DNA of 64,000 nucleotides, taken from the NCBI GenBank assembly GCA_019426215.1, contig CM033396.1:21157101-21221100 (forward strand). The letters run 5' to 3'. The position numbers were made by a program, and so were the translations under genes. The stretch is from Buddleja alternifolia (taxonomy: Eukaryota > Streptophyta > Magnoliopsida > Lamiales > Scrophulariaceae). Positions within the stretch are counted from its first letter, which is position 1. Every line of letters begins with the position of its first letter. The notes below the pieces were generated by a model. The model was given only the letters and a program-made list of their open reading frames with translations. It made no database searches and had not been told where the DNA came from. Positions 6,001 to 56,210 of the stretch are shown piece by piece.

Positions 6001-7052
6001 TTTGGATTAATTGTAAGGGTCACGTTCGAACATGACAAATTGGACGTTCGGGCATGCGATGCAGTGTGTTGGACACTTATACAATCCATAAGCATGAATG
6101 TTTGGATCATCTATGCCATTGGGATTGACAAACGAGAATCATACTCGGTATGTTTCAATTTCGGGTGTTATCTTGATTAGCTAGGTGGGTCAAATGGTTG
6201 ATGACCTGGATTAATAGGATCTAACCCAAGTAGGAATCACACTAAGAATGACCCGACCCACCTCCATCAATGGGTTGACCCGTGTGTTGACCTATGGATA
6301 GTTTTAACTTTGAAATATTATTAAATTTGATTTATTTCGATTTTAAAATTATAATTAGGATTTATCAAACATTTTGGAAATAAGATAAATTTAGTAAATG
6401 CCATCATCTCTGAATCCCTGGGATAGTTGAAATTGGATTTCACTTATACCTACATAAATGTAATGCATTCTTTTATGCTTTGATGCATATGGTGGGATTT
6501 ATTCCATGTATTAGATTTTTGTGCTTTGGGTTTTATCTGGGTTGTATTGGGCCGAAGTTTGAGCCCCACAACTTATCCTTTTCTTTTAATAGATTTTTGT
6601 GTAGGATGCATTCATCTATGTAAATACTAGATTAGGGTTTCTAACTATGAAGATCTTCTTGGAGCTTGGAGACCCGGCGTTAGATGTTAGGCGTAGATCT
6701 TTTAGGACTGTATCCCCTTACCCCTAATTCGGCCATTGGCTTGGCCCAATTTAGTTCAAGTCCATGGAATGCATGTGTGGTCGATTGCTAGGCTTTTATA
6801 TATATATATATTCTCCATGTCTGCGTGCTAAACCGGTTAATGTGCAAAGTGACGCTTAACACAAACGCGAAAAATTATCCCATTTTTAATAAACACTGAA
6901 TTTTAAAAGACAATTGGATGTCCCGACTCTTCATCAACCTTCACGAAAGACGAGTGTGCATCTAAGGCATAATTTTTTCCAGTTAGTAAGGGTTATGCAC
7001 TAAGATATGCATTTGGATTTCTCAAGAGCATTAAATGCCATCAGTCGAAATA

Positions 7053-7283
7053 AATTCTGCCCCATATATCATTAAAGGGTTGTAAGGTGGGATTAAATTG
7101 TTTGATTGATACGGGTTATTGGGATCAAGTACAGATAGATCACAACCTATATATCATTAAAGGGTTGCGATCTCATGATCAATGAGCTGAATGGAGATTG
7201 AATCGCTTGTTAGATGAGGCTGGCAAGGATTGCCACTTTGATTAATCAGTGAGCCATATATCTTTAAAGGGTTGCAACTCACT
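7053..7283 (+). other. Three conserved-loop hairpins upstream of copia A gag (copy 1)
   Basis: Hairpin 1: arms 7053-7061 (AATTCTGCC) and 7086-7094 (GGTGGGATT), 9 pairs counting G-U, loop 24 nt. Hairpin 2: arms 7137-7141 (AGATC) and 7169-7173 (GATCT), loop 27 nt. Hairpin 3: arms 7248-7253 (AGTGAG) and 7278-7283 (CTCACT), loop 24 nt. All loops contain ATATATCATTAAAGGGTTG or a one- or two-base variant. The array lies about 200-430 nt before gag. The same three hairpins with different stems occur in copia B. The structure is seen in the sequence; a role in packaging, dimerisation or translation is inference. Confidence 0.72.
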
Positions 7284-7844
7284 AGACTTATCAGAGAACT
7301 CGATCACTCACTACGAAGCCTATCCAATGAGGTTCCGATTATTGCAGTAGGAGTGCGATGAATCGAAAAAATGTAGTGGGAACCAAGTTAAAATAAAAGT
7401 CCTATTTTACTGGAATTTACAAAATAACGACCTAATTCATTCTTATTTATTTTCTGCAGTTTAATATTTCTCTCAAAATGGTTAATATTACTTAAAGAAA
7501 TGCTTGACAAGAATGTCCTCACTGGACCAAATTATGTTGATTGGATCAGAAGTTTGAGGATTTTCCTCAATGATGAACCACTGGAGTACATACTGGACCA
7601 AATAATTTAACTCGACCGCTGGGTTGATGAGGACGAAAGGGTTCGTACTTTCTATCTGGACTGGGTCACTGATAACCATAAAGGCAGGGGGTATATGGTG
7701 AGCTCTATGAGCAGTGAGGTACAAAGCTCCCACGTGAGAATGGATAGATCATGCTTCATTTAGAAGAGCTTTTTGGAGAGCACATCAGGACCGCTCGGTA
7801 TGTTATATCGTGGGTGCTCTTCAACATGAAGATGAAAGAATGGG

Positions 7845-8952
7845 TAAAAAAGAATAGATTACGCAATGACTCCTTTTGGAGTGTATCGATACCATCCTCA
7901 TGCCTATGGAGTTGGAGGCAATTGCTTAAATTGAGGCCACTAGTGCGTGAAGCGTTCCAACATAATATTGGGAATGGATCAATGTACTTTTTTTGGCGGG
8001 ATCCGTGGCATAAAGATTGTGTACTTGGAAACAAATATCCGAATGGACCACTAATATCGGGAATACCTATGGATGCAAAATTATCGAGTGTTCTAGGTCG
8101 AGGAGAGTGGGAGTGACCATCCTCTACACATTTCGAGGTTCAGCAAATAATGGAATCGCTTCCTCCTACAGCTCCAACTAGAGAAAATTGGGTGGGTTGG
8201 AAATTAACCAAGTCGGATAAGTTCACTATGAAATCAGCACTTACAATTTTTCGTAATCAAATACCTAGGGTTGAATGGTCCGCTTTGTTACATGGCCCGG
8301 GAAAAATCCCAAGACATTTATTTTATACTATGGCTGGCTATCCGAGAAAGGCTTCCAATGAGTGACAAAGAGTGGATTGGACATGGGGAATATAAATGTG
8401 TATTGTGTGATGAAAGTCAGATTGAGAATCATAATCATGTCTTCTTTGATTGTTCTTTCTCACAAAGATGTTTATCTACTCTAAAAAAAGAAGTCAAGTT
8501 CACGTGGCCAACATTGGTATGGGAACGAGGAGTTGTGTGGGCATCAAGAAGATGGAGAGGTAAACATTTGATCAATTGTTGTTATCGAATCTTGTTGAGT
8601 ACATTGGTTTACATGATATGGAAGGAGAGAAACACTCGGATTTTTGAACAAAAGAAGAGCACTCCGGAAGTAGTAACTGACCGAGTTCTAAACATAATCA
8701 AGGATAAAATGCTATCATTATTGTTGAATGATTCGCTACAAAGCATGGCAGTAAAGAGATTGTGGCACATAGCTTGGTAGATGTTTTTCAATTTCAATTT
8801 CTGAAAATCTATGTATCGTGTAGTTTATGCTTTTGGAGTCATGGAGTAGCTAGCATGTTAGCTACTATGGTACGGTAAGGGCCATACCCTTATGCGCTTT
8901 TTTGTACCGATTTTATATTCATATATGCAATTGAACTTTTACCCAAAAAAAA
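7845..8952 (+). mobile_element. 5'-truncated LINE (L1-type) 3' end with zf-RVT
   Basis: Bounded by an 11-bp duplication GAAAGAATGGG at 7834-7844 and 8953-8963, ending in an A-run, so a target-primed insertion into copia gag. It encodes the end of LINE ORF2: the post-RT linker (IGNGSMYFFWRDPWH), then the zf-RVT finger (CVLCDESQIENHNHVFFDC: Cys-x2-Cys, His, Cys), ending VKRLWHIAW and a stop at 8778-8780. It is broken by a TGA at 8116-8118 where copy 2 has TGG, and by an extra T near 8327. Its start happens to be in frame with gag, giving a 121-codon gag-LINE frame. Same insertion as 40274-41380, so it predates the block duplication. Confidence 0.9.
8845..8892 (+). other. Double hairpin in LINE 3' UTR
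   Basis: Hairpin 1: AGTAGCTA (8845-8852), loop GCATGT, TAGCTACT (8859-8866). Hairpin 2: TAAGGG (8876-8881), loop CCATA, CCCTTA (8887-8892). Both sit about 60-110 nt before the poly(A) tail and recur at the same place in all four zf-RVT LINE copies. LINEs that need their own 3' end for reverse transcription often carry such stem-loops; that role is inferred. Confidence 0.75.
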
Positions 8953-10676: not shown

Positions 10677-10700
10677 ATCTCCCATTTGTACTCAATGCCA
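10677..10700 (-). promoter_or_regulatory. Polypurine tract of copia B1
   Basis: On the minus strand a purine-rich run ending GGGAGATTG abuts the 5' end of the 3' LTR, where plus-strand DNA priming occurs in LTR retrotransposons. Confidence 0.65.
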
Positions 10701-11803
10701 TTTGCCATGGTAGTTAATACCCATCCCTTCGAGATGTTTATCTAGCATCGCCCGTGCCAATGGTTTGGTCAATGGATCAGCGACATTGTCAGTTGAGGCT
10801 ATTTTCTGAACATATATTTCTTCTCGTGCAACGATCTCTCTTATGATGTGATATCTCCTCTCGATGTGTTTGGACTTGTTGTGAGACCTAGGTTCCTTTG
10901 CCTGCGCTATTGCTCCAGTGTTATCACAATAAAGTGGCAACGGGAGCTTTATGCTAGGAACCACTTGAAGTTCTTCTATGAACTTGCTTATTCTTCTATG
11001 AACTTCCTAAGCCAAAAAGCCTCTTTAGTTGCCTCAAAGGCAATTATGTATTCAGCCTCAGTTGTGGAGTCCGCAGTTACGCTTTGCTTAGAACTTTTTC
11101 AAGTCAGCGCCCCACCATTGAGGGTGAATACCAATCCTAAGGTGGATTTTTGGTCATCGACATCTGATTGAAAATCCGAGTCAGTGCACCCGTTCACTCT
11201 CAGATCACCACTCCCATAGAAGAGAATCATATCCTTAGTTCTCTTCAGATACTTTAGGATATTCTTCACAGCTATCCAATGTTTCTTGCCAGGGTTTGCC
11301 TGAAATCAACTAACAATGCTTACTGCATAAGCTATGTCAGGTCTAGTACACAACATCGTCTACATGAGGCTACCCACAGCAGATGCATAGCGTATAGTGC
11401 TCATCTCTTTTCTATCTTCCTCACTTTGAGGACACATAGATTTCGAGAGATGTATCCCATGCCTCATTGGAGGTGTGAGCTGTAATACTATACCATTCTC
11501 TCTAAGGTATACATCAAATTCGTCGCTCATATATTCTCCTCCTAGATCCGATCGAAGAGTTTTTATATTTTGACCAGTTTGATTTTCCACTAAAGCCTTG
11601 AATTCCTTGAACTTTTCAATAGATTCAGACTTGTGCCTCATCAGGTACACCGGACGACATCTTGAATGGTCATTAGTGAATGTGATGAAGTAAAGGAAAC
11701 CTTCTCGAGCCATTTCTCCAAATGGTCCACAAACATCAGTATGCACTAAACCTAAGATTTGTGAAGCTCTTTCAAAAGTCCTTGTGAAGGGAGATATAGC
11801 CAT
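10692..11803 (-). pseudogene. Copia B1 integrase joined to RNase H (RT deleted)
   Basis: In sense from 11803: start of the integrase core (VHTDVCGPFGE, then FITFTNDHSR and [14 protein letters not shown]), up to VLQLTPP. It then jumps directly to MRHGIHLSKSMCPQS and YASAVGSLM, which lie after the RT domain. The first ORF (11803-11360) runs through the junction without a stop, so the deletion of the integrase C-terminus and nearly all RT was in frame. Downstream, broken by frameshifts, come RNase H segments ending LPLYCDNTGAIAQAKEPRSH, then 'DNVADPLTKPLAR', with the stop at 10692. Integrase and RNase H signatures are clear; YVDD is absent. Confidence 0.85.
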
Positions 11804-12379
11804 CTTGCCTTTGAGACAAGATTCACAAGTAGGATAGATCCAATCCCAATGGATTAATTAGTCCATCTTTCTCCATTTTATGAATTTTATGTTTGCCGGC
11901 ATGGCCTAGTCTAAGATGCCAAATCAATCTTTGGTTTATTCCAAGCCTACTACGTTTCCTTTGTATAGTATTCACAGAACACTCATTCTGGACATTACGG
12001 TGATACAATCCATTTACTAAAGAAGCAAAGCCTACAAATTTATTACCATAATAAATGTTGCGATGTTCAACAATAAAATGGAAAGTATAACCAATTTTAA
12101 CTAAAACGGGAATTGAAACAATGCTTTTAAGACTATTGGGCAAAACTAAAACACTATCTAGAAAAGTGATGTCCAAAATTTAAAAGCAATGAGGTAGATC
12201 CAATTCCAATAGCTGCGACGCATTGCCCGCTGCCTACTCTGATCTTTACCTCATCAGGACTCAATTTCCTACTTCTTTCCAGATTCTGATTCACACAACA
12301 TACATGAGTATTAGCTCTTGAATCAAGAATCCATGAAGAGGAAAATATGGTAATAGAGCAATTAGTTTCAAAACATAAA
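11804..12379 (-). pseudogene. Copia B1 protease and GAG-pre-integrase region
   Basis: In sense: WILDSRANTHVCC near 12335-12300, where the retropepsin signature should be DSG. Copy B2 keeps DSG, so B1 has a Gly-to-Arg change at the active site. Next come RVGSGQCVAAI, then the pre-integrase domain ending LIWHLRLGHAGKHKIHKM, with the His-His of the integrase zinc site. Frames shift at least twice. Inactive. Confidence 0.8.
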
Positions 12380-13195
12380 GTTCTTTACCTTTTGCTCGTT
12401 TGTTAGGACAGTCTCTTCTCCAGTGGCCTAGCTCACCGCAGCATAAGCATATGTCCTGGTTTCCAGCCCTCTTATTCCTCCTTTGTTGTGCTTTGTTGTA
12501 AGTCGGGTTGGATGCTCACTCTTCAAGATGGTTGTTATTCTTCCTTCCTCCATCCAATGAATTAGGAAAAGTAATTGCCATCGGATTGTTCCATCTATCC
12601 GCCCTCATTTGTTTTTGAGTGACTTTGAGTTTTTCTAGAAGCCCAGCTAATGAACCCTCAATGTCATTCATGTCAAAATTTATGACGAAGTAATAGAACA
12701 AATCAGGGAGTGACTGTAGGATGAGGTCAACTTGGAGATGTAGGTCCATTTGGAAGTTTAAGATTTTAGTTTTTCTATCATGGTCATCATTTTGAAAACG
12801 TGTTCTCCAACATCCTGTCCTTCAATCATCTTAGTTCGAAAAAGTTCTCTTGATATGAAATATCAAGTGGCCCTACCGCGTTCTCCAAACAACTCATCCA
12901 AGTGTAGGATGATGTCTCTTGCATTATCCATCTTGTCATGAGACCTCTGCAACTCAATGCACATGGAACTTAAGATGTACACTCTTGCTCTATTATTGTC
13001 ACAACACTAATCCCAACGGGCCAGGCGAACTTCATAACCCTCGTCTTTTCCGGGAATGGGAGGACGACCAACTTCCAGTACATAGTCTATGGATTCACTG
13101 CTAAGGACCATCCTCAGCTTTGTGAGCCACTCTATGTAATTTGGACCCGTGAGAATCGTGTTCTCCATTAATTTTGACAGTGGTTTGGAAGACAT
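12380..13195 (-). pseudogene. Copia B1 gag
   Basis: Starts at ATG 13195 (MSSKPLSKLMENTIL, then LTGPNYIEWLTKLRM), the same gag N-terminus as copia A. Mid-gag follows (DKLKS region, then NDIEGSLAGLLEKL), and a CCHC knuckle CLCCGELGHWRRDC at about 12450-12410 fits C-x2-C-x4-H-x4-C. Frame breaks occur near 13007 and 12749. About 270 residues if joined, usual for copia gag. The start is fixed by homology to B2 at 44800. Confidence 0.82.
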
Positions 13196-13408
13196 TTTTA
13201 GATTTGAGAAAGATAAATCAAATAACTGTAGAAAATAAACCAGACTTAATTAGACGTATGTAACTAAACTAAAACCAAGTTTAAAATCAAGGACTTCGAC
13301 TTATAACTTGGCCCCCACTACATTTTTCGAGATTCACACTCCCACTGTGAAAAACAGAAGTGATCGTTGTTTATAGCTAAGTAGTGAGGATTGAGTTCTT
13401 TAATTAAT

Positions 13409-13642
13409 GTAATGGATGGCAACCCTTTAACGATATTTGGTCCATTACTTAATTATAGTGATGTCCAACATTAATCTATCCAATAGACGGTCCAATCTTC
13501 TTTTTCCCATAACCCACCAAAACCGCAACCCTTTAACGATTTATAGGCTTTGTGGACTATCTAAGTTTATTCTCACTAACTCCCCATAATCTAACATTTG
13601 AATTTCACCTTGCAACTCTTTAAACGATATTTGGGGTGAAAT
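13409..13642 (-). other. Three conserved-loop hairpins upstream of copia B1 gag
   Basis: Plus-strand coordinates. (a) GTAATGGA 13409-13416 with TCCATTAC 13441-13448, 8 perfect pairs, 24-nt loop. (b) CCACCAAAACC about 13514-13524 with GGCTTTGTGG 13546-13555, one bulge and one mismatch. (c) ATTTCACC 13602-13609 with GGTGAAAT 13635-13642, 8 perfect pairs, 25-nt loop. Each loop holds GCAACCCTTTAACGATAT or a close variant, which in sense is ATATCGTTAAAGGGTTGC, the copia A loop. Compared with copia A, several stem positions changed on both sides while remaining paired. Confidence 0.75.
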
Positions 13643-14689
13643 ATGTCTCGATTAAAGCATCAAATGCGCTTAATAAAATTTTAGAATTAAATCTTGATAT
13701 ATGACCCCCACTTACTGGGAAGATTCCACATACTAGGTTTAAAACTTAATTCTATTAAGTTTAGTGGAGGGAAAGGATGCCTAGCACCCCTTACTAACTT
13801 AGTATAATTTTTAATTGGGAGAATTCATGTTCTAAATATTTATCTAAGTCTCACTTTGCGCATTATCAAATTTATATAGCGCATATTGATAACATACATG
13901 CTTCACATAATTAATGAACATGCATCGAAAGCAATAAATCCAACACATTTATCCATGGGCTTTATATAGAGGGCCAAGCCAATGGGCCATCATAAAGATG
14001 AAAAATAAGCCTAGCTATTCTTCTTGGGCTCCAAGATCCTTCTTCTTTTGGATTGATCTCCTCTTAAGAAGGGCCTATTCTATTTCTATCTATTACATGA
14101 GATTAAATTAACAACCTATACCTAATTCTAGAAATAAAATAAAAGGGCTCAAATCCGGCCCTTACAACCCATTAAAAAGAAATACAATAAAAAAAAAACA
14201 ACCTAAGCCCATGAATAAATGTCACCATCATATAATACATGTTCGCGGTACTTAAAGCAACTATGTTGGTGATTAAGTTGATAAATAATTAGTCCAACTA
14301 ATTAATTTTCACAATAAAATTCCAAACTTTATTGATACTTATGGTAATAAACCATCTAGTGAGAATTTATTATTTAAATAAATTAATTAATTAAAAAATC
14401 CTCCAAGAATGATTAATTAATTATTTCACTTAAATAATAAATATTCAATAAAAACAATTTGGGCTCGATTTCATCAAATATAAATTACCAACCATTGGCA
14501 TATTTAATATTCAATTAATTAAGCCCAAAACTAATTTATTGAAGGTCCATAATTTTAATTAAAACAATTTGGGCTTATTTAATTAAATCCGGGTCATCAT
14601 CCTTTTGACCCACCCAAAAAATTAAAATAGCCCAAAACCCATTTATTTAAAATTGGACCCGAGAAATTTGGACCCAAGCCCATTGGTCC

Positions 14690-14850
14690 TGATGCCGTGC
14701 ACTGTGTGGCCTCGTCGTGCGCCCAACGCACAACGTGTGGCCTGGCCGTGTGCTAAAAAGCACATGGCGCTACTGCGCACGCCGTGCGCGCAGCGCGCAA
14801 ACTGCGCAAGCAGAGCGTGTCTCGCTCGTCTCGGGGTTTTTCACCCCCAA
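14690..14850 (-). other. GC-rich, self-complementary block in copia B1 leader
   Basis: An island of GC in AT-rich DNA with nested short palindromes such as GTGCGCGCAGCGCGC and repeated TGCGC/GCGCA steps, 180-350 nt downstream of the primer site in sense. The same block, shorter, is at about 46270-46420 in B2. Retroelement leaders often hold dimerisation or packaging structures here; that function is inferred. Confidence 0.5.
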
Positions 14851-15025
14851 TTCTCGCATAACTTTGATTTTTCAATTCACATATCATCATACTACAATAT
14901 ACATGAATTAAAACGCAAAAAAATCATGGTTTTCATATCATAAAAACATATTCTAATAACATGCTTCAAAAATACAAAAATAACATAAATCACGTATTCA
15001 ATTAAATACGAAAATTAGAGAAAGA

Positions 15026-15037
15026 CTCTGATACCAC
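15026..15037 (-). promoter_or_regulatory. Primer-binding site of copia B1
   Basis: CTCTGATACCAC on the plus strand, i.e. GTGGTATCAGAG in sense, directly abuts the 5' LTR at 15038; initiator tRNA-Met type. Confidence 0.9.
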
Positions 15038-16552
15038 TGTTGGGTTTTAATGCATAAAAACGCAGTGGAAGATAAAATTGAAAAGCCCACGTGGTTCATC
15101 TCGATTTCACATATTCAAATTGTGTTTCGAATTCATGTACCTTTCTTCGCGTATGTTGAATTCTGAACCAGCTTTCTTGATCCTTTCTTGAACAGTAAAA
15201 TCGTCACTGTCTCTAAATTGCCACGCCGGAAATCAAAGCGAAAAATCCTCATCGTTTCTTTCCTTGAAATCGGCTAGGGGGGGGGGGGAGAGAGAGAGTT
15301 GGAAGACTTCTTGACTTGGAGAGAAAGGTAATGTAGGAGACTTGTTATTATCTCCACTAAGTAGTATATTTATACTACACTAGGAAATAATAACCCTAGG
15401 CTTCTTTAACTTAGGCTTTAGAAAGCCTTTGGGTTTTAGTCCATGTTTGTTTGTTTAATTAATTAACTAATTAATATTATTTATCAAATAAATAAATAAA
15501 TTAAATAACTAATTAAATCTATGTTAATTCTATAATTAATTTTCTCTAACAAATTAATTAAATCATTAGCTTAATTAATAACAATAACATCATCTAATGA
15601 TTAATTAATGAATTAATTTCGATATCCCATACCGAAAAATTCTCTCAAGTCTATTCCATGATTTTTCCCTTTGCAATTCCTTTAAGCGCGACTCTTTTAG
15701 TTCGTCTGAAAAGGCAATTGGGAGGAAACCAAGAGGATGTGAGTAACACCTAGCCAGACCCGTGGCTCACATCGTACCCCAATTGAGAATGAATGATTAG
15801 AATCATTCCAAACCTTTTACGCTGTAAATACCGTACGAGTATAAACCTTTTATTCATACATCCCAGTTAAGGATATTTTGCTTTGGCCAAAGTCTTTAAA
15901 CCTCACTCATTCATGATTGCATAGGATATTTTGCTCATCCACTTATAAGAGAATAAATCCCATTTTGCTAATCAGTTAAGAATGCTACTTGCCCATCAAG
16001 TCGCACTTCGAGGTCGATCCCACCAAAGGGTGAATTGGATCTAACTACTCTAATGACAGACTTGATGTCACAAGTACATCTTCAACTTGATTCCTCAGGT
16101 CTAAGGTTCACGCATACATATCACAACTTATCAGTTCCATCATTGACTGTCAGTGAGTGAAAACCCACGTGATTAAACTGATGCGAGTTGCTTTCGAACA
16201 TATCTGTCTAACTGAGATGTTTATGACATAAGTTTCCACTACCATTCCCATAGTGATTGACTAGCACTTTCTCTGTCAAAACTTACATCATACACAAGTC
16301 TTTATTATTGATGTCCAGTCAATACTCTATTCGACTTGCTAACAAGTTTTAGATAATAAGGATCAAACTTTTCTAGTGCCATTCCTCCTAGCCCATAGAA
16401 GTAGAACATTTGCCTTATTATCAAAGACTTTTACATTGTTTATTAAAGCCTTACAAATGCCTATAAGAAAACAACAAAACAATGCCTTATATTACCAAAA
16501 GATATTGTTTAGTTACAAGTCTTTATGATATTTGAGGGCATGTACTCTAACA
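15038..16552 (-). repeat. Copia B1 5' LTR
   Basis: 1515 bp, TG..CA ends, flanked by the primer site on one side and by GTGCA (16553-16557) on the other. It contains the palindromic TATA at 15361-15378 and a G11 run near 15277. Differs from the 3' LTR by substitutions and indels. Confidence 0.9.
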
Positions 16553-37737: not shown

Positions 37738-38884
37738 GTCGTATCAGAGCTAACTTTAGGAGGGTTTATGAATTTTATGTTTATGTTGGTATTTTTTTTA
37801 TTGAATATTTGGTTTTTGATGTTAGGGTTTGTTATAAAATTTGATTTTGGTGCATGACATATAGTTAGTTATATGTCAGACGTGTTTTAAGTTGACCGGA
37901 TTCAACAAAAACAAATTCGGGGAGTCAATGGAATTGGTGGGGCCGCTGTTTTTCAAAAATAGCAGAACAGGCCGACGTTCCAACATGCATGGTGCAATAT
38001 TCGGATGTCAAGTATAGTACAATTTTTCAAAAGTATTCTACATCCAACATTCGAACGTCCTCAGAGACAAGTTCGGGCGTTGGACGCACCAACGCTTGAG
38101 CGTCCTTAGAGGCACGTTTGGACGTTGAACATTTCAATGTTCGGACATCCTTAGAGGCACGTTCAGCCATTGGAAACAAAATGTTTTGAATTAATTGTAA
38201 GGGTCACATTTGAACATGACAAATTGGACGTTCGGGCGTGCAATGCAGTGTGTTGGACACTTATACAATCCATAAGCATGAATGTTTGGATCATCTATGC
38301 CATTGGGATTGACAAACAAGAGTCATACTCGGTATGTTTCAATTTCGGGTGTTATCTTGATTAGCTGGGTGGGTCAAATGGTTGATGACCTGGATTAATA
38401 GGATCTAACCCAAGTAGGAAATACACTAAGAATGACCCGACCCACCTCCATCAATGGGTTGACCCGTGTGTTTTTCTTTTAATAGATTTTTATGTAGGAT
38501 GCATTCATCTATGTAAATACTAGATTAGGGTTTCTAACTATGAAGATCTTCTTAGAGCTTGGAGACCCGACGTTAGATGTTAGACGTAGATCTTTTAGGG
38601 CCGTAACCCCTTACCCCTAATTCGGCCATTGGCTATGTATATATTCTCCATGTCTGCGCGCTAAACCGGTTAATGTGCAAAGTGACACTTAACACAAACG
38701 CAAAAAATTATCTCATTTAATAGACACTGAATTTTAAAAGAGAATTGGATGTCCCGGCTCTTCATCAATCTTCATGAAAGACGAACGTGCATCTAAGGCA
38801 TAATTTCTTCCCAGTTAGTGGGGGTTATGCGCTAAGATATGCATTTGGATTTCTCAAGAGCATTAAATGCCATCAGTCGAAATA

Positions 38885-39101
38885 AATTCCGCCCCATATA
38901 TCATTAAAGGGTTGTATGGTGGGATTAAATTGTTTGATTGATACGAGTTATTGGGATCAAGTTCAGATAGATCACAACCTATATATCATCTCATGATCAA
39001 TAAGCTGAATGGAGATTGAATTGCTTGTTAGACGTGGCTGGCAAGGATTGCCACTTTGATTAATCAGTGAGCCATATATCTTTAAAGGGTTGCAAATCAC
39101 T
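38885..39101 (+). other. Leader hairpins of copia A2 (two of three left)
   Basis: Hairpin 1: AATTCCGCC 38885-38893 with GGTGGGATT 38918-38926. The copy-1 U-G pair is a C-G pair here, so pairing is kept. Hairpin 2: only AGATCACAACC and the loop start survive; ATTAAAGGGTTGCG and neighbouring bases are deleted after 38987. Hairpin 3: AGTGAG 39066-39071 with ATCACT, closing pair lost. Confidence 0.7.
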
Positions 39102-39138
39102 AGACTTATCAGAGAACTCAATCACTCACTACGAAGCC

Positions 39139-44800: not shown

Positions 44801-46613
44801 TTTTAGATTTGAGAGAGATAAATCAAATAACTGCAGAAAATAAAACAGACTTAATTAGACATATGTAACTAAACTAAAACCAAGGACTTCGACTTATAAC
44901 TTGGCCCCCACTACATTTTTCGAGATTCACACTCCCACTATGAAAAACGGAAGTGATCGTTGTTTATAGCTACGTAGTGGGGATTGAGTTATTTAATTAA
45001 TGTAATGGATGACAACACTTTTAATGATATTTGGTCCATTACTTAATTAAAGTGATGTCCAACATTAATCTATCCAATAGACGGTCTAATCTTCTTTTTC
45101 CCATAACCCACAAAAACCGCAACCCATTAACAATTTATAGGCTTTGTGGGACCATCTAAGTTTATTCTCACTAACTCCCCATAATCTAACATTTGAATTT
45201 CACCTTGCAACTCTTGAACAATATTTGGGGTGAAATATGTCTCGATTAAGGCATCAAATGCACTTAATAAAATTTTAGAATTAAATCTTGATATATGACC
45301 CCCACTTACTGGGAAGATGCCACACACTAGGTTTAAAACTAAATTCTATTAAGTTTAGTGGAGGGAAAGGATGCCTAGCACCCCTTACTAACTTAGTATA
45401 ATTTTTAATTGGGAGAATTCATATTCTAAACATTTATCTAAGTCTCACTTTGCACATTATCAAATTTATATAGCGCATATTGATAACATACATGCTTCAC
45501 ATAATTAATGAACATGCATCGAAAGCAATAAATCCAACACATTTATCCATGGGCTTTATCTAGAGGGCCCAAGCTAATGAGCCATCATAAAAATGAAAAA
45601 TAAGCCTAGCTATTCTTCCTGGGCTCCAAGATCCTTCTTCTTTTGGATTGATCTCCTCTTAAGAAGGGCCTATTCTATTTCTATCTATTACATGAGATTA
45701 AATTAACAGCCTATACCTAATTCTAGAAATAAAATAAATGGGCTCAAATCCAGCCCTTACAAACCATTAAAAAGAAATACAATCAAAAGAAAACAACCGA
45801 AGCCCATGAATAAATGTCACTATCATATAATACATATTCACGGTATTTAAAGCAACTATGTTGGTGATTAAGTTAATAAATAATTAGTCCAACTAATTAA
45901 TTTTCTCAATAAAATTCCAAACTTTATTGGTACATATGACAATAAACCATCTAGTGAGAATTTATTATTTAAATAAATTAATTAATTAAAAAAATCCTCC
46001 AAGAATGATTAACTAATTATTTCACTTAAATAATAAATATTCAATAAAAACAATTTGGGCTCGATTTCATCAAATATAAATTACCAACCATTGGCATATT
46101 TAATATTCAATTAATTAAGCGCAAAACTAATTTATTGAAGGTCCATAATTTTAATTAAAACAATTAGGGCTTATTTAATTAAATCCGGGTCATCATCCTT
46201 TTGACCCACCCGAAAAATTAAAATAGCCCAAAACCCATTTATTTAAAATTGGACCAGATAAATTTCGACCCGAGCCCATTGATCCTGACGCCGTGCACTG
46301 TGTGGACTGGCCATGCGCCCGACGCACGGCGTGTGGCCTGGCCGTGTGCTTTTTAGCACCCGGCGCCGCTGTGCACGCAGCGCGCAGCCTGCGCAAGCAG
46401 AGCGTGTCTCGCTCCTCTCAGGGTTTTTCACCCCCGATTCTCACATAACTTTGATTTTTCAATTCACATATCATCAGACTACACAATATACATGAATTAA
46501 ACGCAGAAAAATCATGGTTTTCATTTCATAAAAACATATTCTAATAACATGCTTCAAAAACGTGAAAATCACATAAATCACGTATTCAATTAAATACGGA
46601 AATCAGAGATTGA
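44801..46613 (-). other. Copia B2 leader with triple hairpin
   Basis: Hairpins: GTAATGGA 45002-45009 with TCCATTAC 45035-45042; CCCACAAA 45107-45114 with TTTGTGGG 45143-45150; ATTTCACC 45197-45204 with GGTGAAAT 45229-45236. Stems are perfect, while loops have picked up several substitutions compared with B1. A GC-rich block lies at about 46270-46420. No coding region. Confidence 0.72.
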
Positions 46614-53745: not shown

Positions 53746-54197
53746 AGGGAACTAGGAATTTGACTGAATTTAGTATTAATTTTAGTTAGTCGGGTGTTAA
53801 TTCCGTTTGATTTGAGATTAAATTGTGGTTATTTGGTGGTTTAGGGTACATTGATCCAACTGGTGATCTATATTTATACTTAGTTGCTGAAAATATAATG
53901 TTTTATCTATAGTTTTATGTGATTTATGTGATCCGACTGGTGATCAATATTTGTAGTTGCTGAAAATATAATTAATTAAGATTGAAATTGGATTTTAGCG
54001 GATCGTCAGATTCGAATTTTGTTGGATTCAACCTACCCGGGTGAAGATTAAGTCGAGAACTTGGTAGTAATTTTTGCGTTGTTACTCTGCTGAATTTTTT
54101 CTAGAATAATGGGAAATAAATTAAAATACAAATTATTTAATTAATTTAACTATCAACTGATGATAAAATTGTTTAATTTGATTAATTCAGAATCAAA

Positions 54198-56210
54198 ATG
54201 GATCGAAGTTGGATTTTAGCAGATCGTATGTCGGAACAGTATGAGAAAGGTGTGAAAGAGTTCATAAAGTTTGCGGTTGACCATGCACCAGATCGAACTA
54301 GGATCACTTGCCCGTGTTTACGTTGTTGTTTTGGAAAGAGAATTAGTCCACGTGAGTTGGAAGATCATTTGGTGTGTAATGGAATTGATAAAAGCTACAA
54401 ACGTTGGACAAGACACGGTGAAAGCAGTGTCCCGTTGGATGATTTGGGTGGTACATCATATCCATCACACGATTTCAACATGAATGATTATGAGCCTGAT
54501 CGTTTGGAGGAGATGACAAATGTGATTGAGGAGGATTTGCGAAATTGTCCTAAAATGTTTGACAATTTGACAAGTGATTCAAAGACACCACTGTATAGTG
54601 GTAGTAAATTCACTAGATTGAAAACAGTTCTTAACCTATACAAGTTAAAAGCCAACAATGGGTGGAGTGATAAGAGTTTCACAGACTTGCTTGGTTTATT
54701 AAAAAGCATGCTACCTGAGGATAATGTGTTAACTAATCGTACTTATGAGGCTAAACGGATGTTAACCTCAATTGGCATGGGATATGAGAGGATACATGCG
54801 TGTCTCAATGATTGCGTATTATTTAGAATTGACTATGCATCATTGAAGGCCTGTCCAAAATGTGGCGCCTCACGGTACAAGAAGAATGGATCTACGCCTG
54901 TCAAAACCATGTGGTATTTGCCTATAATACCACGATTTAAACGCATGTACAGTAGTAAAGAGTTAGCCAAGGACTTGACATGGCATGCTGATAGAAGGTT
55001 TGAAGAAAGGATTGAAGATGACAAGATTCGACATCCCTCAGATTCTCCTCAATGGAAAAAGATTGATGATGATTTCCCTGAATTTGGTGAAGAATCAAGA
55101 AACCTGCGCCTTGTATTGGCTACAGATGGCATGAACCCTCATGGCTTGCAAAGCAGCTCACATAGTACATGGCCGGTGATTTTGATGATCTACAACCTTC
55201 CCCCATCGCGATGCATGAAGCGAGAGCATATAATGATGCCTATACTCATTTCTGGGCCGAAACAACCTGGAAATGATATAGATGTCTACTTGACCCCTTT
55301 AATTGAGGATTTGAAGGTGTTGTGGGACACCGGTGTTCAAGTATATGACGGGTTGAGAGAAGAAAATTTTAATCTCAGAGTCATGTTATTTGGAACAATC
55401 AATGATTTTCCGGCAAGAGCAAACCTCGAGGGATATGGTGTACATGGCCAATGTGGATGCCCCATATGTGTGAAGAGTACAGATCAATATCGATTGACAC
55501 ACTCCCAGAAATATGCATTCCAAGGGCATCGGAGATGGCTAAATCGGAACCATCGATATCGTCGGTGGAAGAAAGCTTTCAATGGGAATATAGAAGAAGG
55601 TCGAGCTAATAGAGATGATTGGGTGAGTTGGAAGCCAAATACTTCAGGTAAGTTTACTACAATATCAGCCTATAAGATTTTTCAAAGAAATGCTCCAAAT
55701 GTAGAATGGTCTTCCCTACTCATGGGGCCGGGGAAGATTCCTAGACATTTGTTCATTTTATGGCTTGCAATTCGAGAGAGACATCCAATGAGGGACAAAC
55801 AATGGATAGGGCATGGAGAGGACAAATGCGTGTTATGTGATGAGGATGAGGTGGAGAATCACAACCATATGTTCTTTATGTGTGATTTCTCTCGGAAATG
55901 TATGACTATTTTTTGTAGCGAGGTGAAATTTTGTTGGCCATATACGGATTGGAAAAGAGGAATACGATGGCCAGCCCGAAAATGGAGGGGAAAACACTTG
56001 ATCAATTGTTCATACTGGATTCTTTTAGGTACATTGACATACATGAGTTGGAGGGAGCGGAATTCAAGAATTTTTGAGCAAAAAAAACAAACACCGGAGG
56101 CAGTTGCTAGACGTGTCCTCAATCTTGTAAAAGATAAACTCATCTCAATGAATCTTGAAGACTCCTTACAAAGTAGGGTTGTTAAGCGTCTTTGGCAAAT
56201 AGCATGGTAG
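54198..56210 (+). CDS. TNP2-type CACTA transposase fused in frame to LINE zf-RVT (670 codons)
   Basis: One uninterrupted frame. Residues 1-80: transposase-associated domain (MDRSWILADRMSEQYEKGVK; Cys-rich CPCLRCCFGK). Residues about 140-470: TNP2 core with CPKCGASRYK, the first catalytic Asp in LATDGMNPHG (D310) and the second in GTINDFPAR (D403), and CPICVKSTDQ. It stops at NHRYRRWKKAFNGNIEEGRA, before the third acidic residue expected in TNP2. From about 471 the sequence changes to LINE: WVSWKPNTSGKFTTISAYKI, finger CVLCDEDEVENHNHMFFMC (C544, C547, H557, C562), ending VKRLWQIAW. Start chosen as the TNP2 N-terminus. As a transposase it is truncated and probably inactive; whether the chimera is expressed is unknown. 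Confidence 0.85.
   Translation: MDRSWILADRMSEQYEKGVKEFIKFAVDHAPDRTRITCPCLRCCFGKRISPRELEDHLVCNGIDKSYKRWTRHGESSVPLDDLGGTSYPSHDFNMNDYEPDRLEEMTNVIEEDLRNCPKMFDNLTSDSKTPLYSGSKFTRLKTVLNLYKLKANNGWSDKSFTDLLGLLKSMLPEDNVLTNRTYEAKRMLTSIGMGYERIHACLNDCVLFRIDYASLKACPKCGASRYKKNGSTPVKTMWYLPIIPRFKRMYSSKELAKDLTWHADRRFEERIEDDKIRHPSDSPQWKKIDDDFPEFGEESRNLRLVLATDGMNPHGLQSSSHSTWPVILMIYNLPPSRCMKREHIMMPILISGPKQPGNDIDVYLTPLIEDLKVLWDTGVQVYDGLREENFNLRVMLFGTINDFPARANLEGYGVHGQCGCPICVKSTDQYRLTHSQKYAFQGHRRWLNRNHRYRRWKKAFNGNIEEGRANRDDWVSWKPNTSGKFTTISAYKIFQRNAPNVEWSSLLMGPGKIPRHLFILWLAIRERHPMRDKQWIGHGEDKCVLCDEDEVENHNHMFFMCDFSRKCMTIFCSEVKFCWPYTDWKRGIRWPARKWRGKHLINCSYWILLGTLTYMSWRERNSRIFEQKKQTPEAVARRVLNLVKDKLISMNLEDSLQSRVVKRLWQIAW

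Follow-up and report, generated by a model that had tools for sequence, protein, structure and literature searches.

The leader of a plant Copia retrotransposon family contains a module of about 300 nt that would fold into three successive hairpins, whose stems vary yet stay paired and whose 22-nt loop is near-constant. Comparison of 81 copies makes it very probable that these three like-loop hairpins have been kept by selection acting on RNA, a conclusion supported about as far as sequence alone permits. The preliminary description had reached the same conclusion from two copies; it is the larger sample, not the two-copy comparison, that supports it. The function of the array is a matter for more tentative argument. 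Packaging of genomic RNA is our first choice for the main job of the hairpins, with somewhat less than even confidence.

Cis signals that mark the genomic RNA of plant LTR retrotransposons seem poorly known. A threefold hairpin with strong evolutionary support offers a handle on two questions: which protein binds the 22-nt loop; and whether it serves packaging, export, or splicing.

The elements and their leader

The window, the 64-kb stretch of DNA that was analyzed, contains four Copia elements in two pairs: B1 and B2 on the minus strand, and A1 and A2 on the plus strand. Copia identity was established through Pfam matches in a better-preserved relative, copy L097, whose pieces correspond in order to Retrotran_gag_2, zf-CCHC, gag_pre-integrs, rve, and RVT_2. 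Judged by these features (gag, integrase before RVT_2, LTRs, and an adjoining primer binding site, PBS), the element is a Ty1/Copia LTR retrotransposon. B1 itself matches rve above the cut-off and gag_pre-integrs below it, and is without an RT piece. Its integrase runs straight into the RNase H region (10692-12179, minus strand), most of RT being deleted. A non-autonomous, trans-mobilized B1 subfamily was considered and rejected: the deletion junction is private to B1 among the best 40 of 3477 candidates.

The B1 gag start codon lies at 13193..13195 (minus strand), as placed by tblastn gag homology with a piece of L097. The primer site, TGGTATCAGAGT (15025..15036, minus strand), is a motif that we take to be of the tRNA-iMet type; it has seven matches in the window at no more than one mismatch, where 0.18 are expected. 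It adjoins the end of the 5′ LTR, whose approximate bounds (15038..16552, minus strand) come from direct repeats about 5.88 kb apart. Among upstream pieces, 16 of 24 contain a PBS candidate, two of these at two mismatches. The B1 leader, from primer site to gag ATG, thus measures about 1.8 kb and includes 47 upstream ATGs. Within this AT-rich leader, a very GC-rich stretch was noted by eye at about 14700-14850 of the window.

The three-hairpin array

The array is a leader module placed between primer site and gag. In A1, A2, B1, and B2 alike, hairpins with a near-identical 22-nt loop directly precede gag; the middle one of A2 is damaged. Here they are numbered H1 (gag-distal), H2 (middle), and H3 (gag-proximal). 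In B1 (minus strand), H1 occupies 13587..13654, its inner arms (13602-13609 and 13635-13642) enclosing a loop at 13610-13634; H2 occupies 13509..13560, with its loop at 13525-13546; and H3 occupies 13398..13458, with inner arms at 13410-13416 and 13441-13447, outer arms that extend to 13398 and 13458, and a loop at 13417-13440. The A1 hairpins (plus strand), drawn from sequence and folding, lie at 7040..7110 (H1; arms 7054-7061 and 7086-7093), 7125..7190 (H2; loop 7147-7168), and 7230..7299 (H3; arms 7248-7253 and 7278-7283). The A2 array, recognized by sequence, lies at 38870..39120 (plus strand), and the B2 array, with three hairpins by sequence and fold, at 44990..45253 (minus strand). The stems exceed those of the preliminary description: H3 has about 10 additional outer pairs, and H1 has middle and outer helices.

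Compared with dinucleotide shuffles, B1 hairpins H1 and H3, which also show covariation, are clear (z −3.36 and −3.18), and H2 is less so (z −2.07); the three A1 hairpins are less clear (z −2.20, −1.47, and −2.44). The B1 H2 fold is ambiguous when taken from the single copy, but its outer stem pairs covary. In A1 the modeled H2 fold differs from the single-copy fold, and single-copy folding recovers the modeled H2 in only about 40 of 81 copies.

The genome searched comprises 853 Mb in 429 contigs. The loop core, ATATCNTTAAAGGGTTGC (18 positions, one of them free; up to one mismatch allowed), has 5234 matches there; the reversed core, as a control, has 2. Given two to three loops in each copy, the former number suggests about two thousand copies. 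When the B1 and A1 arrays were used as DNA queries, each scored at least 40 places. We examined 91 copies: the four in the window and 87 other loci, of which the B1 search supplied 7, the A1 search 20 (out of 40 places), and the loop matches 60. The first 100 loop matches listed, all on contig C1, correspond by hand count to about 73 distinct places, of which these 60 come first. Locus L001 is window B1 itself and was omitted.

A regular triple array is present in 81 of the 91 copies. The other ten have no regular triple and were left out: L010, L029, L031, L036, L045, L055, L075, L082, L083, and window A2, dropped because of its damaged H2 loop. The L045 array has four loops, its middle hairpin being duplicated. 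The 81-copy alignment spans 301 columns, with a mean pairwise identity of 0.79 and a minimum of 0.62. A tree made without the arms yields subfamilies A (32 copies), B (32), D (5), and E (5); the remaining 7 copies, C, are a remainder and not a clade. Support within B is weak on the array tree. C as a separate coding lineage was considered and rejected, its low tblastn identity being put down to decay: copies L102 and L103 are 86% identical to each other in DNA, and L102 is 66% identical to L097 over the RT piece.

Selection keeps the stems paired

The analysis covered 48 pairs in seven helices, suggested by single-copy folds of the same copies. Changes were placed by parsimony on the tree made without the arms, as means over 20 to 30 random resolutions. 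Internal branches are assumed to represent lines that were still copying, and terminal branches mostly decay after insertion. Of the stem changes on internal branches, 63 preserve a standard pair and 14 break it (82% kept); on terminal branches, 84 keep the pair and 157 break it (35% kept). The mutation spectrum of unpaired spacer columns predicts that 32% would be kept on internal branches and 35% on terminal ones. The difference between the two classes of branch is pronounced (Fisher p 2.7e-13). The preliminary description had held that independent change of the two arms in further family members would speak against selected pairing. Such change does occur on terminal branches, where the arms drift as neutral decay predicts, so that this argument is valid for internal branches only; there, changes are mostly paired.

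Double changes number 12, compared with a mean of 1.3 and a maximum of 5.67 in 300 re-matchings of arms within helices; in these re-matchings the kept share averages 0.63 and reaches at most 0.79. A repeat with 500 re-matchings gave 12.4 double changes versus a largest null value of 6.5. On a tree built from the downstream stretch, 66 changes keep and 15 break the pair, with 21.6 double changes versus at most 8.0. The effect is present in the C1 sample (52 rows, p 6.7e-8) and in the rest (29 rows, p 3.5e-10), and also in the A clade (p 7.6e-5) and the non-A clade (p 1.7e-7). Taken singly on the downstream tree, helices H1mid, H2out, and H3in have p < 0.01; the other four of the seven (H1out, H1in, H2in, and H3out) are above p 0.05. 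All of these p values serve as guides, because branches are partly dependent and support within B is weak.

R-scape was the check first suggested for the stems. In a comparable test, all 44253 column pairs were scored under a null that preserves the substitutions of each branch; no pair reached E < 0.05, and the best, an H3 pair, had E 2.9. The test is low-powered here: the few deep splits between subfamilies cause many unpaired columns to change in concert, and R-scape applied to a sample of this kind would probably also give a negative result. Restricting the comparison post hoc, by arithmetic, to the 48 proposed pairs brings three (226-270, 228-267, and 231-264) below 0.05. Six proposed pairs are among the 120 top-scoring, versus 0.13 by proportion.

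Sense RNA or DNA?

When a transition replaces one partner of a Watson-Crick pair, the result is either G-U or A-C. Since G-U on one strand is A-C on the other, an internal excess of G-U indicates that selection reads the sense strand. Internal branches have 27.6 G-U versus 6.3 A-C (p 1.9e-4; 1.0e-3 on the downstream tree), whereas terminal branches, with 63 versus 74, are unbiased. The selected pairing appears to lie on the sense RNA, and not in DNA. This bears on the proposal that the arms have no RNA function, being matched instead through DNA-level inverted-repeat correction, through a template switch that copies one arm, or through a role as a DNA cruciform or protein-binding site. Arm-to-arm copying also yields double changes. 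However, the G-U bias of internal branches and the single-pair steps between subfamilies, described below, both count against a DNA-level origin, which we consider highly improbable. Comparing internal with terminal branches, and G-U with A-C, provides a simple RNA-structure test that can be applied to any family of repeats, including those in which covariation is blurred by dead copies.

Stem pairs and loops across subfamilies

In the gag-proximal hairpin, the arms first described (TAATGGA/TCCATTA in B1 and AGTGAG/CTCACT in A1) are confirmed in the sequence, as is the change on both strands of pairs 1, 2, and 5 counted from the loop. These three pairs are GC,AT,GC in A (23 of 32 copies); GC,GC,GC in C (5 of 7); AT,GC,GC in D (5 of 5); AT,GC,AT in E (4 of 5, the fifth having the D state); and AT,GC,AT in B (30 of 32). 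Along the series A-C-D-E/B, neighboring subfamilies are one base pair apart, with both sides changed. Such single-pair steps argue against a one-off replacement of the whole arm.

The gag-distal hairpin is a different case. One double change and three wobble-to-Watson-Crick changes, presented as A having become B, do distinguish the A1 and B1 copies; they do not distinguish the families, and the direction is not polarized. Pairs 3-6 of H1 are most often AT,CG,CG,TA in A (16 of 32 copies), whereas 29 of the 32 B copies have AT,CG,TA,TA. The family difference is thus confined to pair 5, which is C-G in A and U-A in the other subfamilies. Wobbles are present at pair 3 in 4, at pair 4 in 4, and at pair 6 in 12 of the 81 copies.

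The loop, which had been described as kept, is nearly but not perfectly so. H1 of B1 has one extra base and one change; the B2 loops contain three changes in H1, two in H2, and an insertion in H3; and A and B loops differ on the 5′ side. Loops undergo 0.57 changes per site on internal branches and spacers 1.26, versus 2.85 and 3.02 on terminal branches; loop constancy is partly ascertainment, because an exact loop match served to find 60 of the 91 copies. The slowest-changing part is TTAAAGGGTTG. It lies outside a palindrome, ATATAT, that was seen by eye in the loops of A and, for most C, D, and E copies, in that of H2. In typical B loops (AAATAT in H1 and H3, ATAAAT in H2), a 6-nt palindrome is absent by eye.

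An apical variant, ACAGAG for TTAAAG, was seen by eye in H1 of 11 of the 32 A copies (14 with near forms). It occurs mostly in H1, for example in A copies L022, L033, L035, L049, and L081. Pairing between the loop and its own element is not evident: in 14 pieces the longest complementary runs are 9-13, within the shuffled-loop range of 8-14. The loop has no matches in the viral contigs searched, and the window has none to Rfam at the gathering cut-off.

One array, two types of gag

Two gag types, about 45-51% identical, occur among close relatives whose pol pieces are mostly 80-95% identical. One type is present in L092, L093, L095, L096, L099, and window B1 and B2; the other is present in L090, L091, L094, L097, L098, and L100. 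The switch point lies near the gag ATG, and leaders are similar across types. Gag could be typed in 41 copies; the other 40 are A-like or untyped. On the array tree, gag type requires 15 changes for the 41 typed copies, versus a shuffled mean of 13.3, and both types occur within every one of three B subgroups. Because gag type is placed no better than at random on this tree, leaders and gags appear to have been exchanged often; the number of exchanges is rough, given the weak support within B.

Template switching, in retroviruses, needs both RNAs in one particle. If the same applies here, exchange between leader and gag makes it likely that both kinds of element were packaged together. Co-packaging, in turn, makes the shared array a candidate for a common packaging signal.

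A possible leader intron

Two sites in B1 resemble splice sites. A predicted acceptor-like tract, TTTATTTTCTACAG, lies about 30 nt before the gag ATG (13226..13239, minus strand), and a weak donor-like site (AAAG/GTACAT) is predicted in U5 (15135..15144, minus strand). The U5 site was compared in two separate alignments, one of 9 B, D, and E copies and the other of 7 A and C copies. By reading, 13 of the 16 have GT at the matching site, which lies about 100-140 nt upstream of the PBS. Eight of nine donor consensus letters match in 5 of 16, all of them A or C copies; the B, D, and E copies, 9 in all, fall short of this. In L060 and L088 the site reads AAGGTAAGT.

A tract resembling TTTATTTTCTGCAG passes the acceptor-like rule before gag in 49 of 81 copies, compared with 41 of 81 in a control stretch just upstream and 11 of 81 on the antisense strand. 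CTAAT-like letters precede it in 47 of the 49, and the next ATG follows 18-33 nt on in 42 of the 49. Upstream ATGs between 125 nt before the PBS and about the first hairpins number 38-60 in 16 copies. Before the U5 site, ATG density is 0-0.6 per 100 nt in 13 of these 16 copies, and 2.3-6.9 in three C copies. A search for spliced retrocopies found none, as is expected for spliced RNA without a PBS; this result lends the intron no support. Together, these features weakly suggest that the array may sit in a leader intron that runs from the donor-like site in U5 to the acceptor-like tract before gag. If such an intron is used, spliced mRNA would lose the array, the PBS, and dozens of upstream ATGs, and unspliced genomic RNA would keep them.

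What might read the loops?

In our proposed model, the three loops would form a joint, multivalent site through which Gag, the presumed loop-binding protein, selects genomic RNA for packaging. The array lies where a packaging signal would be expected, between PBS and gag on genomic RNA. The model also entails that two very different Gags must both read the loops. That the same loops serve two unlike Gags would fit a host reader at least as well. Our second choice, clearly less probable, is of that kind: a nuclear-export or intron-retention element, whose three loops are read by a host RNA-binding protein that exports unspliced genomic RNA. Transport elements export the unspliced RNA of some mammalian elements. 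Near-identical loops repeated within a predicted intron, and unchanged despite switches of Gag type, favor export, although the intron is itself a prediction from sequence. Moreover, NXF1, the mammalian reader, is not the plant route according to the available part of a 2025 review, which describes the export of plant LTR-retrotransposon RNA as not directly studied (PMC12786077). A broader version is marginally less probable again: the three loops would be a multivalent platform for a host protein that both exports and protects unspliced genomic RNA. The array would then be the plant equivalent of the mammalian transport elements and would have persisted while Gag types changed.

Other readings are unlikely to varying degrees. 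The array could drive or regulate gag translation from the 1.8-kb leader, by internal entry or ribosome shunt; indeed, ATG density drops across it: the preceding 300 nt have 3.2 per 100 nt (79 copies) and the following 160 nt have 1.1 (81 copies). However, we know of no shunt design with three equal loops, and the predicted leader intron, if used, would remove the array from gag mRNA; this function seems unlikely, even though structured leaders of plant pararetroviruses act by shunting, as stated in an extract of one report (PMC5902531). We are more doubtful still about dimerization through kissing loops, a model proposed for Ty1 in the portion of the report available (PMC5454406). The ATATAT palindrome would suit kissing in A loops and in H2 of most C, D, and E copies, but not in typical B loops, and the slowest-changing part of the loop lies elsewhere. 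Finally, the array could be targeted by host small RNA or give rise to it, and be either tolerated or used as a decoy. Hairpins and a repeated 22-nt segment are compatible with this, but a silencing target should presumably escape rather than stay constant across subfamilies, and we rate the idea as low as the absence of any RNA function. Packaging by Gag remains the preferred reading.

Comparison with known systems

To our knowledge, no described family matches the array. A literature search by title and start of abstract, among the papers listed, found no report of it; part of the loop sequence appears in two papers, which by title concern unrelated subjects. The gammaretroviral packaging signal, psi, contains several stem-loops with the same loop motif. 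The array resembles psi in its position between PBS and gag, its several hairpins with like exposed loops, and its covarying structure. It differs in its much longer loops (about 22-24 nt), its three spaced copies over about 300 nt, and its plant Copia setting. The CTE of MPMV is likewise a structured cis element on unspliced RNA, with repeated loops. Ty1 is itself an element of the Copia superfamily.

The packaging and dimerization domain of Ty1 is similar in being structured RNA at the 5′ end; as described in the portion available, however, it comprises a pseudoknot and complementary loops in the 5′ terminus, with a 5′ UTR of 53 nt (PMC5454406). The array instead consists of three separate like-loop hairpins in a long untranslated leader. 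BARE, also a plant Copia element, generates by splicing a gag-only mRNA apart from the packaged RNA, and packaging signals are said to be conserved in the parasitic BARE2 subfamily, according to excerpts of one paper (PMC3735527). The BARE intron, in the same excerpts, is 104 nt and lies inside gag (PMC3735527), whereas the intron predicted here would span the leader, beginning in U5 and ending shortly before gag. Sireviruses provide another case of conserved, repeated non-coding motifs in plant Copia elements. In the passages available these motifs are not leader hairpins: palindromic boxes occur near the env-like gene and within the LTR, and the PPT has an inverted repeat (PMC2829016). The mouse RTE/MTE, too, are structured cis elements on unspliced retroelement RNA, although the plant export pathway differs, by the partial text of the review (PMC12786077). 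RTE/MTE and CTE are likened to the array by description, not by sequence.

Further features of the window

In A1, gag is broken at 7748-8780 (plus strand), where open frames resemble, by eye, a remnant of a non-LTR retrotransposon. Elsewhere in the window, a 673-aa open frame at 54189-56210 (plus strand) contains Transposase_21 and Transpos_assoc domains; presumably it encodes a CACTA-type transposase.

A further hairpin, H5, lies nearer to gag (B1 13276-13312, minus strand) and at the same place in many relatives: CCAAGT pairs with ACTTGG, and the loop contains AAGTCCT. H5 is plausible, with 86% of cells paired in the 81 copies. Its changes comprise 4.0 that keep and 2.3 that break the pair on internal branches, and 9 and 33, respectively, on terminal branches.
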